Shown here: positions 3,011 through 5,846 of the stretch, one piece after another
Layout of the letters: the number at the start of each line of letters is the position of its first letter
Numbering within the stretch: the stretch's first letter is position 1
DNA from: Pelagibacteraceae bacterium AG-339-N18
GTDB taxonomy: Bacteria; Pseudomonadota; Alphaproteobacteria; Pelagibacterales; Pelagibacteraceae
Length of the DNA stretch: 7,250 nt
Direction: 5' to 3'
NCBI GenBank assembly: GCA_003282055.1
Contig: QCAD01000033.1
Location: 1-7,250, forward strand
Position numbers and translations under genes: made by a program
Notes under the pieces: generated by a model
Databases searched by the model: none
Told to the model about the DNA's origin: nothing
The model's input: only the letters and a program-made list of their open reading frames with translations

Positions 3011-4009
3011 ATGAAAAATTCTAATAGCAATTTAAATACTAAAATATCTGACTCTACTGATATCTCTAAACCATGGGGTAAGGATAATCAGGCGTGGTGG
3101 GATTGGTATGTTGGTCTTGCAGATAATGATTTTAAAGAATATGAGATCATAAATATGTCCCCCTTACCAGATATTGTACTACCCAGTGATGATGATGTTA
3201 TCTCAGAATTAGCTGAGCCCTACCATTTGACTGATGATCAGATTAATTTTTTCAAAAAAAATGGTTTCATAAAACTTAAAAAGGTTTTCTCACCTGGGGC
3301 TGTGCTAAAACTTAGAGCTGAGTTAATTAATCTATTAAAAAAAAAGTTTAAAGTTGATCCAGATAAAGAAGCTAATGATCGATTCCTAAGCCTTGAGATG
3401 ATTTGGCCTGATAACCCTTTACTCCGTGCCTATGTTTTATCACCGCGTCTAGGGCAAATTTCGGCGAATCTTTTAGAAGTATCAGCTGTCAGACTTTACC
3501 ATGACAATGTGTTAGCAAAACAATCTGGTTGTGGTCGTACACCATGGCACTTTGATGATCATCATTTTCCGTTAGATACTAACGATGTAGTTACCGCCTG
3601 GGCCCCAGCACAGCCAACTCCTGTTGAGATGGGACCACTCTCTTTTGCCTATCCGCTTGATGTGCGCGAATTGGTTAAGGATGTCACCTTTGAAAAGACT
3701 GGCACTGGATATGACAGTGAGGTCTCAAAAATTTTTTCAAAAAATAATGTGAGCGTGAATGAAACTCCATTTGAACTTGGCGAAGTTAGCTTTCATCATA
3801 ATTTAAACTTTCATACCGCTTCACGCAACCGAACTAACCATAGCCGAATAGCATTAGCTAATACTTATTACAGAGATGGAGCAAGGGTAATCAATTCACC
3901 CACTATGGTCTCTGGTGACTGGCAGAAATTTATGCCCAATGTCAAACCAGGAGACATTGCTGTTAGTCCACTAAATCCAATTTGTTGGCCAATTAAAAGT
4001 AAATTATGA
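3011..4009 (+). CDS. PhyH-family Fe(II)/2-oxoglutarate dioxygenase
   Basis: A non-heme iron oxygenase of the phytanoyl-CoA dioxygenase (PhyH) family, which usually hydroxylates a small molecule using O2 and 2-oxoglutarate. The 332 residues have an N-terminal extension of about 70 residues with an unusual Trp-rich stretch (NQAWWDWYVGLAD, 26-38). The PhyH domain starts at LTDDQINFFKKNGFIKLKKV (73-92). The iron ligands are His180 and Asp182 in TPWHFDDHHF and His268 in LNFHTASRNR. Arg279, eleven residues after His268, matches the 2-oxoglutarate-binding Arg of the family, as in ectoine hydroxylase. All catalytic residues are therefore present. No signal peptide is seen. The gene is first in an operon with a methyltransferase and egtD, and overlaps the methyltransferase by four bases (ATGA). 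No Shine-Dalgarno precedes the ATG, but the next Met (49) would remove the Trp-rich segment. Lysine is only about 7.5%, unlike the flanking operons. The substrate is unknown; a methylated amino acid is my inference from the neighbours. Confidence 0.88.
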   Translation: MKNSNSNLNTKISDSTDISKPWGKDNQAWWDWYVGLADNDFKEYEIINMSPLPDIVLPSDDDVISELAEPYHLTDDQINFFKKNGFIKLKKVFSPGAVLKLRAELINLLKKKFKVDPDKEANDRFLSLEMIWPDNPLLRAYVLSPRLGQISANLLEVSAVRLYHDNVLAKQSGCGRTPWHFDDHHFPLDTNDVVTAWAPAQPTPVEMGPLSFAYPLDVRELVKDVTFEKTGTGYDSEVSKIFSKNNVSVNETPFELGEVSFHHNLNFHTASRNRTNHSRIALANTYYRDGARVINSPTMVSGDWQKFMPNVKPGDIAVSPLNPICWPIKSKL

Positions 4010-4926
4010 GAGACATAAATAATCAAAAGGGATTAAATTCCATTTGGACTGACAGTCTCACTCACAATGTGCATCCTAATGGAAATGCTTTAATTAACCA
4101 TTTAAAAATTATCCATCAAGAAAACGCTGGATTTACTGAAGTTTGTGCAAGTTCTTGTCGTGATAAAGTTGGACGTAATAGTTACGAATGGCTAGCTGAA
4201 CTTGTGCCAGATAATGAGGTTTCAAGTGTATTAGATCTTGCTTGTGGTTCTGGGCTATTATTAAAAATATTATTTGATCGTAATAAAAATTTAAATTTAA
4301 AAGGAGTAGACATGTGTCCTGAAGAACTAGCATTAGCAAAGACACGCCTTAAAAACAGTAAAGCTGATCTGATTGAGACAAATGCGCAAAATTTGAGAAT
4401 AATCAATGATAAATCCATTGATATAGTTTTATGCCATTGGGCTTTAACATTAATGGACCCGATAAACCCTGTGCTAAATGAAGTCAAACGAATTTTAACC
4501 TCTAAAGGTCGGTTTGCGGCAATAATTGATGGACCAATGAATATAGCACCCGGCTACAAAGAGGTTCACGATTTAATTTATAGTTATGTGCAGGAGGAGA
4601 TACCAAGTTATGGAGAGATTGATTTAGGTGATCCAAGGATACGAAAATCTGAAAGTCTGAGTATACTTGTTCATAAACTTTTTCCAGGAGCAAATGTAAC
4701 TATAGATACTAATGTTGTATTTATAGAAGGACCAGTTGCTCAAATAGCTGAAATCGCAGCTGGATTTTTTTATGCTACATTTGTCTTAAAGCCAGAGAAA
4801 AGAAAATTAATGATCAAAGGTCTATCTAAACTTCTCGCAGTATCCAAAAAAAATAATGATGCTGAGAGACAGGGACGTTTTTCAATGCCAATTAGTCGTC
4901 TTTTAGTTGTACCTGATATAAAATGA
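4006..4926 (+). CDS. Class I SAM-dependent methyltransferase
   Basis: A soluble methyltransferase with a Rossmann fold, 306 residues. Motif I is VLDLACGSGLLLKILF (75-90), the glycine-rich SAM loop. Asp102 in LKGVDMCPEEL is the likely ribose-binding acidic residue. DIVLCHWALTLMDP (139-152) is the motif around strand 4, and RILTSKGRFAAIID (162-175) is strand 5. The first 60 residues (with HQENAGFTEVCASSCRDK, 37-54) and the C-terminal lobe from about 190 are accessory regions that probably form the acceptor site. I do not recognise the exact subfamily or the acceptor atom. The gene overlaps the dioxygenase upstream and egtD downstream, each by four bases as ATGA, which implies co-translation. 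No Shine-Dalgarno is visible at its start, and no other Met occurs before residue 103. Composition matches the dioxygenase (about 7.5% Lys) and not egtD, so the two look co-inherited. O- or N-methylation of an EgtD-derived or dioxygenase-derived product is a guess. Confidence 0.88.
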   Translation: MRDINNQKGLNSIWTDSLTHNVHPNGNALINHLKIIHQENAGFTEVCASSCRDKVGRNSYEWLAELVPDNEVSSVLDLACGSGLLLKILFDRNKNLNLKGVDMCPEELALAKTRLKNSKADLIETNAQNLRIINDKSIDIVLCHWALTLMDPINPVLNEVKRILTSKGRFAAIIDGPMNIAPGYKEVHDLIYSYVQEEIPSYGEIDLGDPRIRKSESLSILVHKLFPGANVTIDTNVVFIEGPVAQIAEIAAGFFYATFVLKPEKRKLMIKGLSKLLAVSKKNNDAERQGRFSMPISRLLVVPDIK

Positions 4927-5846
4927 AATCATTTTCAGAAGAAGTAAGCCTAGGCCTAAGTAAGAGAAACAAAAAACTAAGTTCTAAATGGTTTTATGAC
5001 TTCAATGGATCAAAACTTTTTGAAAAAATTACTAAGTTGAAAGAGTATTATCCAACACGAATAGAAAAAAAAATTTTAAAAGAAAATAAAAATGAAATTG
5101 CTAATAAAATAGGCAAGGACGCTGTTTTAATTGAACCAGGCGCTGGAGACATCAAAAAAATAGCTATTTTTCTCAACAGCCTAAATAACCCAAAAAAATA
5201 TATACCTTTGGATATTTCTGAAGATTATATAACTAAAATATCTCAAGGTTTTAAAAAGAAATTTCCAAAAGTAGCTATTACTCCAAAAGGATATGATTTC
5301 TCTAGTAACAATAAACTTCCTTTTAAAATCAATTCGTCAGAAAATATAATTATTTTTTTTCCAGGATCAACAATCGGAAATTTTGAAAAAAATGAAGCTG
5401 TTAAATTTTTAAAAATACTTAAAACAAAATTTAAAGCAAAAAAAATTATAATTGGTGTTGACTTGATTAAAGACATTCCAACTTTAATTTCGGCTTACGA
5501 TGATAAAAAAGGTATAACTGCAGAATTTAACAAAAATATTTTACACAGAATTAACAATGAATTAGGTGGAGATATAAACTTAAATTTTTATAAACATTTA
5601 GCTATTTATAATAAAAAAAAAGAAAGAATTGAGATGAGATTAAAATCTAAAAGAAATAATAATATTAAAATAAACGGTTCAAAATATTTTATAAGAAAAA
5701 ATGAGGAGATTCATACTGAGAATTCTCATAAATACACAATAAAATCCTTCAAGAATATAGCTAAAGAAGCTGGATGGAAAATTAAGAAGACTTGGGTTGA
5801 TGACAAAAAACTTTTTAGTATCCATTTCCTAGATCTAGCTCTTTAA
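4923..5846 (+). CDS. egtD: L-histidine N-alpha-methyltransferase EgtD (hercynine synthase)
   Basis: EgtD transfers three methyl groups from SAM to the alpha-amino group of histidine to give hercynine, the first step of ergothioneine synthesis. At 307 residues it is close to the usual 320. Family motifs run throughout: KWFYDFNGSKLFEKIT (22-37), EYYPTR (41-46), IEPGAGDIKK (70-79), FFPGSTIGNF (145-154), GVDLIKD (178-184), AYDDKKGITAEFN (191-203), RIEMRL (235-240) and HTENSHKY (264-271). Positions matching the histidine-binding residues of mycobacterial EgtD appear conserved: Tyr25, Tyr42/43, Asn153, Tyr192, Met238, Glu266 and Ser268. Histidine is therefore the best-supported substrate. The gene overlaps the methyltransferase upstream by four bases (ATGA) and has no visible Shine-Dalgarno. 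Lysine is about 19%, host-like and far above its two operon partners. No EgtB sulfoxide synthase is in the window, so hercynine may be the end product, feed an egtB elsewhere, or be modified by the neighbours. Confidence 0.92.
   Translation: MKSFSEEVSLGLSKRNKKLSSKWFYDFNGSKLFEKITKLKEYYPTRIEKKILKENKNEIANKIGKDAVLIEPGAGDIKKIAIFLNSLNNPKKYIPLDISEDYITKISQGFKKKFPKVAITPKGYDFSSNNKLPFKINSSENIIIFFPGSTIGNFEKNEAVKFLKILKTKFKAKKIIIGVDLIKDIPTLISAYDDKKGITAEFNKNILHRINNELGGDINLNFYKHLAIYNKKKERIEMRLKSKRNNNIKINGSKYFIRKNEEIHTENSHKYTIKSFKNIAKEAGWKIKKTWVDDKKLFSIHFLDLAL

Follow-up and report, generated by a model that had tools for sequence, protein, structure and literature searches.

The 7250-base stretch of DNA analysed here (hereafter, the window), which is Pelagibacteraceae-like (SAR11), carries three genes on its forward strand that encode a PhyH-family Fe(II)/2-oxoglutarate oxygenase (PhyH; positions 3011..4009, 332 aa), a class I S-adenosylmethionine (SAM)-dependent methyltransferase (MT-B, below also MT; 4006..4926, 306 aa) and EgtD, the L-histidine N-alpha-trimethyltransferase (4923..5846, 307 aa). 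An earlier model-made note on this DNA (the original prediction) described open reading frames of these lengths joined by two ATGA overlaps, and both are confirmed in the sequence, the overlaps lying on the same strand at 4006..4009 (PhyH/MT) and 4923..4926 (MT/EgtD). We consider it slightly better than an even bet, for the reading as a whole, that this trio is a small operon making a sulfur-free modified histidine betaine, and that PhyH and the methyltransferase constitute a mobile pair that relies on an EgtD encoded either nearby or elsewhere in the genome.

The trio is widely conserved. A scan of one-per-species genomes with a PhyH alignment returned 187 encoded relatives, the best 80 loci of which were examined. 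The order PhyH-MT-EgtD was observed at 48 of these 80 loci, a comparison of related genomes that the original prediction had proposed as a check, and confinement of the trio to one genome is accordingly rejected; the other arrangements were EgtD-PhyH-MT (three loci), divergent EgtD/PhyH (two) and the pair without a neighbouring EgtD (27). The MT gene is located downstream of PhyH at all 80 loci, with a second methyltransferase gene, MT-A, intervening at L076-L079. The -4 overlap recurs at each of the two junctions in most trio loci, and 34 of the 48 possess both. When compared with five relatives, dN/dS values were 0.12-0.14 for PhyH, 0.25-0.29 for MT and 0.10-0.17 for EgtD, and each of the three appears to evolve under purifying selection. 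The recurrence of the trio, the paired overlaps and the dN/dS range of 0.10-0.29 place it far beyond chance, and it is well supported that the three genes act as a unit.

The association is also apparent at the level of whole genomes. Among 197 Pelagibacterales genomes, drawn evenly, PhyH (counted at E < 1e-200) was found in nine, and MT (counted at E < 1e-130) in exactly these nine; seven weaker PhyH matches (E 1e-11 to 8e-4) were left uncounted, as was the next MT match at E 1.9e-8. EgtD, counted above 100 bits, was present in 27 of the 197 genomes (24 over the cut-off, with seven matches under 20 bits dropped), i.e., in 9/9 PhyH-positive versus 18/188 PhyH-negative genomes (Fisher p 4.6e-9; this and the following p-value overstate independence, as the genomes share ancestry). 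EgtB, the partner of EgtD in the aerobic ergothioneine pathway, scored over its cut-off in 21 of the 197 genomes (12 lower matches, one of them a contig-end fragment, were dropped), and among the 27 EgtD genomes it was found in 17 of the 18 without PhyH versus four of the nine with PhyH (p 0.008), while 26 of the 27 possess EgtB or PhyH. A second sample comprised 50 hand-chosen genomes, each the source of one of the 80 loci, with completeness not given and many loci combining EgtB with the trio left out; EgtD was found in 48 of them (42 over the cut-off, the others weaker or fragmentary) and EgtB over its cut-off in 13, plus one cut by a contig end. PhyH at E <= 1e-50 is rare elsewhere, being found in 3 of 244 in the order of genome G047, 6 of 385 in its class and 2 of 200 in the order of genome G044.

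The three proteins and a proposed pathway

The PhyH protein matches PF05721 with 51.9 bits (cut-off 22). Its iron and 2-oxoglutarate ligands, which had been predicted to be complete, are indeed all present (H180, D182, H268 and R279), and they are invariant among 20 close homologues and also among 61 homologues down to 38% identity. In the sequence and the predicted structure taken together (pLDDT 92.6 with the 61-row alignment, 36 with the 20 close sequences), the HxD...H iron triad and the 2-oxoglutarate Arg occupy the fold expected of PF05721 oxygenases. Small-amino-acid hydroxylases acting on proline, leucine or ectoine are among the 50 structural neighbours listed for the model; no trimethylated-amino-acid hydroxylase is prominent among these 50, which excludes nothing. 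The N-terminus of PhyH bears a conserved W-rich region (residues about 21-37) that is covered by few structures among the matches listed. A search of a protein collection with PhyH returned 4464 matches at E <= 0.001, the best 120 of which are all at least 71% identical, and one among the closest clusters represents 2323 sequences.

The window EgtD matches the TIGR03438 equivalog with 354.7 bits (cut-off 290.9), and it also matches structures of M. smegmatis EgtD (E 2e-45). Eleven histidine-site positions were checked, whose roles and M. smegmatis numbering we take to be those of Y39, Y56, N166, Y206, M252, E282, S284 and others; all 11 are kept in the window EgtD, in agreement with the original prediction, and in 15 other aligned trio EgtDs. 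These residues support the assignment of the trio EgtD as a putatively good histidine methyltransferase. The third protein, MT-B, is a generic class I SAM methyltransferase (58.7 bits to Methyltransf_11), whose family does not assign a substrate and in which DLACGSG represents the SAM motif region of the alignment. No NCBIfam model was matched at its cut-off among the matches listed for MT-B (25 of 29), and its identification as the methyltransferase domain of OvoA was rejected, ovoA_Cterm being absent from those same 25 of 29 matches, with no dedicated comparison made.

Judging from its sequence, EgtD would very probably trimethylate histidine to yield hercynine. PhyH would then probably oxidise hercynine with the aid of Fe(II), O2 and 2-oxoglutarate, the reaction most likely being the hydroxylation of a saturated carbon, for which the beta-carbon adjacent to the imidazole is the best guess. 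There is an even chance, in our estimation, that MT acts on this product, where it would add one methyl group to the new hydroxyl or to an imidazole nitrogen. The succession of a PhyH hydroxylase and a methyltransferase suggests a hydroxylated, capped product, and a hydroxylated and/or further methylated hercynine, as first proposed, is the presumed compound, which may act as a betaine solute or protectant. EgtB may co-occur with this pathway, in which case the PhyH-MT pair would operate independently of it.

EgtB and the substrate of the pair

No egtB is present in the window, nor was an EgtB match found at E <= 0.001 in any of the five genomes (G001-G005; completeness not given) that share the window's neighbourhood, from which relatives we infer that EgtB is absent from the window's whole genome. 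In the trio genome G206, represented by a single contig of 1,284,727 bases, the best EgtB-profile match reaches 41.8 bits against a cut-off of 360. The possibility that EgtB is merely encoded elsewhere in the genome is thus unsupported (0/5 in the window's group, none over the cut-off in G206). As regards OvoA and SenA, G001-G005 returned no match to the EgtB profile at E <= 0.001, the OvoA and SenA models themselves not having been run on genomes; as one EgtB protein scores against the SenA and OvoA models too, the EgtB profile would probably detect such synthases.

At 19 of the 48 trio loci an EgtB gene is located directly 5' of PhyH. The EgtB of L016 scores 528.9 bits (cut-off 360) and its best structures are those of Cabther EgtB; further 5', where the contig extends, are genes for glutamate-cysteine ligase, glutathione synthase and two transporters (families were run on L016, and the same clusters occur elsewhere). 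At L006 the same EamA and MFS transporters stand 5' of PhyH, but the locus has neither EgtB nor the genes for glutamate-cysteine ligase and glutathione synthase, and carries another gene, of 184 aa. No EgtB was found in the L006 genome, and EgtB appears to have been lost naturally here while the trio stayed intact. A second EgtB-like frame (G049:C268:2238-3497, 667 aa, 328.9 bits) was observed beside a full EgtB in the L078 genome, which is labelled Thioalkalivibrio.

The original interpretation is therefore supported in part. EgtB was not found in the genomes of the nearest relatives or in many other trio genomes, but to say that it has been replaced is too strong in view of the 19 loci at which it adjoins the trio; the trio does not depend on EgtB, nor does it simply take its place. 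Given this adjacency, PhyH and MT resemble additions to hercynine metabolism that are retained whether EgtB is present or absent. The same 19 loci, and the order EgtD-PhyH-MT-EgtB at one Burkholderiales locus, would also fit a late tailoring role in which ergothioneine or the EgtB product, rather than hercynine, is the substrate of PhyH and MT. This is nevertheless unlikely, as 23 out of 27 searched trio genomes (hand-chosen, completeness not given) lack an EgtB match, and so do all nine genomes whose EgtD is detached and not paired with EgtB.

A putatively mobile pair and its EgtD partners

The PhyH proteins of L052, L059 and L073 are 76-82% identical to that of the window, whereas their adjoining EgtDs are only 37-38% identical to the window EgtD and form a separate, well-supported tree branch (for which long branches and uneven composition were flagged). 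Three further loci, L029, L039 and L042, belong to the trio clade (100/100) in the PhyH+MT tree and have no EgtD beside the pair; EgtD is encoded elsewhere in their genomes, adjoining EgtB in the L039 and L042 genomes, and that of the L039 genome is 44% identical to the window EgtD. Nine additional pair genomes have a detached EgtD (three of which are fragments), with an EgtB match in 0/9. The pair appears to need some EgtD, no particular EgtD, and no EgtB. Since it is found with differing EgtDs and also without EgtB, hercynine is the simplest common substrate, and is considered the likely one. Viral contigs yielded 43 pattern-matching stretches, none encoding a PhyH relative, while eight plasmid records do possess PhyH relatives, all under 60% identity, and EgtD is absent from the gene lists of three plasmid PhyH neighbourhoods (Streptomyces, Emticicia and Priestia).

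Among 52 genomes searched, MT-A was present in 7/7 non-SAR11 and in 0/45 Pelagibacterales genomes. It is possible that EgtD acts in SAR11 as a stand-in for the missing MT-A, although the co-occurrence of EgtD and MT-A in the seven non-SAR11 genomes counts against this. Distant PhyH relatives (L152-L156, 43-57% identity) are accompanied by MT-A in 5/5 and by MT-B in 3/5 cases, with EgtD elsewhere in all five genomes. An MFS transporter is encoded at L152 and L153 and sodium/proline-type symporters at L153, and genes of the same size and order occur at L154, hinting at a small molecule that is transported as the product of the L152-L154 cluster. A second, short PhyH frame (L158, 6658-7287; 209 aa, 54% identical), with no MT beside it, was noted in the same genome as L073.

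Relatives of this kind, which have transporters and no EgtD next to PhyH and MT-A (and in some cases MT-B), would agree with the pair belonging to an unrelated pathway and having come close to EgtD through shared variable islands, as would the several differing neighbourhoods of the trio and a genome (G454) without an EgtD match. We regard this as improbable to the same degree as the ergothioneine-substrate alternative, given the 9/9 versus 18/188 distribution of EgtD, the linkage of PhyH-MT to unrelated EgtD branches and the -4 overlaps kept in most trios.

The order of the reactions could also differ, PhyH first hydroxylating free histidine or another amino acid that EgtD then trimethylates. 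Proline, leucine and ectoine hydroxylases, which act on free small molecules, are near folds of PhyH, and the detached EgtDs of group D (L113-L118, from six of the nine genomes above and read with about 5 kb on each side) all six display, by M. smegmatis numbering, M252G and T163S in the histidine pocket, changes that might enlarge it. Against this sequence of events, the trio EgtDs keep all histidine-site residues checked, the pair is also found with ordinary EgtB-linked EgtDs, and L121, from a genome lacking PhyH, has the same M252G change, so that this order is judged quite unlikely. The EgtD of L113 is surrounded by ABC transporter genes (a ProX/OpuAC-like, glycine-betaine-type binding protein, a ProW-like permease and an aminoethylphosphonate-type ABC), and genes of the same sizes surround EgtD at the other five group D loci. 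A GcvT-like gene beside EgtD at L118, an HD-domain protein weakly resembling TmpB/Phn-HD oxygenases at L114 (4802-5353) and a TauD-family oxygenase at L121 (5318-6415), the latter two near a detached EgtD, were also recorded.

Very improbable is a new route to ergothioneine or to a selenium or sulfur analogue, with PhyH chemistry assisting the insertion of the heteroatom: an EgtD without EgtB did previously lead to a new sulfur enzyme, MES (PMC9516567), and EgtB or PhyH is present in 26/27 EgtD-positive Pelagibacterales genomes, but neither PhyH nor MT has a sulfur-handling domain, EgtB and PhyH co-occur in 4/9 PhyH genomes, and the accessible part of PMC9516567 counts four independent origins of ergothioneine and names no 2-oxoglutarate oxygenase. 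Rhodaneses were observed in 12/12 genomes examined, two of which had open frames of about 400 residues; a check for the rhodanese-like enzyme EanB, made on the long rhodanese of G206 only (its end cut off), gave matches to 1yt8, 6mxv and 2hhg, none of which is named EanB.

A number of observations weigh against the operon for a sulfur-free histidine betaine that we favour. No EgtD was found in two PhyH genomes (G023 and G026), and none was matched in G454, which possesses PhyH-MT-A-MT-B, completeness not being given for any of the three. Neither PhyH nor the methyltransferase has a family assignment naming a substrate, and the closest folds to the PhyH model are SnoN and SnoK of nogalamycin biosynthesis, whose substrate is not an amino acid. 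The distant PhyH relatives stand with MT-A, MT-B or transporters and have EgtD only elsewhere in the genome. Where EgtB adjoins PhyH, a product derived from ergothioneine is possible. Finally, of the alternative sulfur enzymes EanB and MES, the analysis covered only the first, and that in part.

The trio is found in several distinct neighbourhoods. In the window it is preceded on its 5' side by the end of prpD, then prpB and prpC, while the opposite strand carries a DUF4149 gene, an ABM-domain gene and a partial gene for the ribonucleotide reductase small subunit; a promoter and terminator scan gave about the same count of signals as shuffled sequence. The G+C content in the window is 0.38 for PhyH, 0.34 for MT, 0.25 for EgtD and approximately 0.30 for prpDBC. 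The nearest loci, L001-L005, are on Pelagibacteraceae contigs and have nrdB just 3' of the trio as in the window, with prpC on the 5' side in four of the five, the contig of L003 starting just ahead of PhyH. In a large group, represented by L007 (4349-12836) and similar loci, the trio is positioned directly behind sucA-sucB-lpd (2-oxoglutarate dehydrogenase type) and ahead of priA, while an ABC-2 type transporter pair, which could export the product, lies directly 3' of the trio at L030 (5436-7128) and L066 (6731-8423).

Comparison with known systems

In the open-licence literature, most subscription papers being outside this scope, no described pathway or gene cluster with PhyH, MT and EgtD was found, in keeping with the earlier statement that none is known; the same literature yielded none of the hydroxy- or methoxy-hercynine names looked for, and nothing that joins ergothioneine with SAR11, EgtD with phytanoyl-CoA dioxygenase, or hercynine and EgtD with a 2-oxoglutarate dioxygenase, while methylhercynine is named in two papers. 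It is tentatively suggested, at somewhat less than even odds, that the trio is the first route known to convert hercynine into a histidine betaine that is free of sulfur, oxygenated and O- or N-methylated, an undescribed metabolite made in SAR11 in place of or beside ergothioneine, in which a mobile pair joins the EgtD of its host. EgtD is commonly read as an ergothioneine maker, and here it stands in an overlapping set with an oxygenase and a methyltransferase in genomes of SAR11 without a detected EgtB. If the favoured reading is correct, genomes may be credited with ergothioneine synthesis when they make a different betaine, and there is a marine metabolite still to be detected. The SAR11 bacteria are described in abstracts as the surface ocean's most abundant heterotrophic bacteria.

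The PhyH of the trio has its fold and its iron and 2-oxoglutarate ligands in common with EctD, the proline hydroxylase H11, GriE and MysH, from which it differs in sequence (approximately 15-20% identity), in its extra W-rich N-terminal region and in its linkage to EgtD. As to possible products, hercynine is reported from 9/10 cyanobacterial strains in a source whose available portion describes betaines as compatible solutes (PMC3826126), and 6-methylhercynine, a betaine from a deep-sea sponge, shows that hercynine with a further methyl group does occur among marine natural products (PMC8779493). The latter compound bears its methyl group on the imidazole C-2 and is not oxygenated, and the accessible text of that report gives no genes and shows no link to the trio (PMC8779493).

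With the aerobic ergothioneine pathway (EgtB-EgtD, or EgtABCDE in full) the trio shares EgtD, and so hercynine, and in some trio relatives the likeness extends to genes for a Cabther-like EgtB, glutamate-cysteine ligase and glutathione synthase on the 5' side. In contrast to that pathway, no EgtB was found in the window or its nearest relatives, in which PhyH and an extra methyltransferase are coupled to EgtD. The trio hosts are aerobic marine bacteria. According to the part of PMC9516567 available, most EgtD genomes possess EgtB or EanB, about 80 are without a known sulfurising enzyme, and 55 of those are explained by the metallopterin-dependent synthase MES, homologues of which occur in anaerobes and whose metallopterin domain is fused to a cysteine desulfurase. 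The purpose of orphan EgtDs, a question raised in that same text, becomes testable with three small enzymes. The EanB (rhodanese-like) and MES (metallopterin) routes resemble the trio in that EgtD is present without EgtB and with another partner enzyme (PMC9516567); EanB and MES, however, add sulfur, whereas the partners in the trio are an O2-dependent oxygenase and a methyltransferase.

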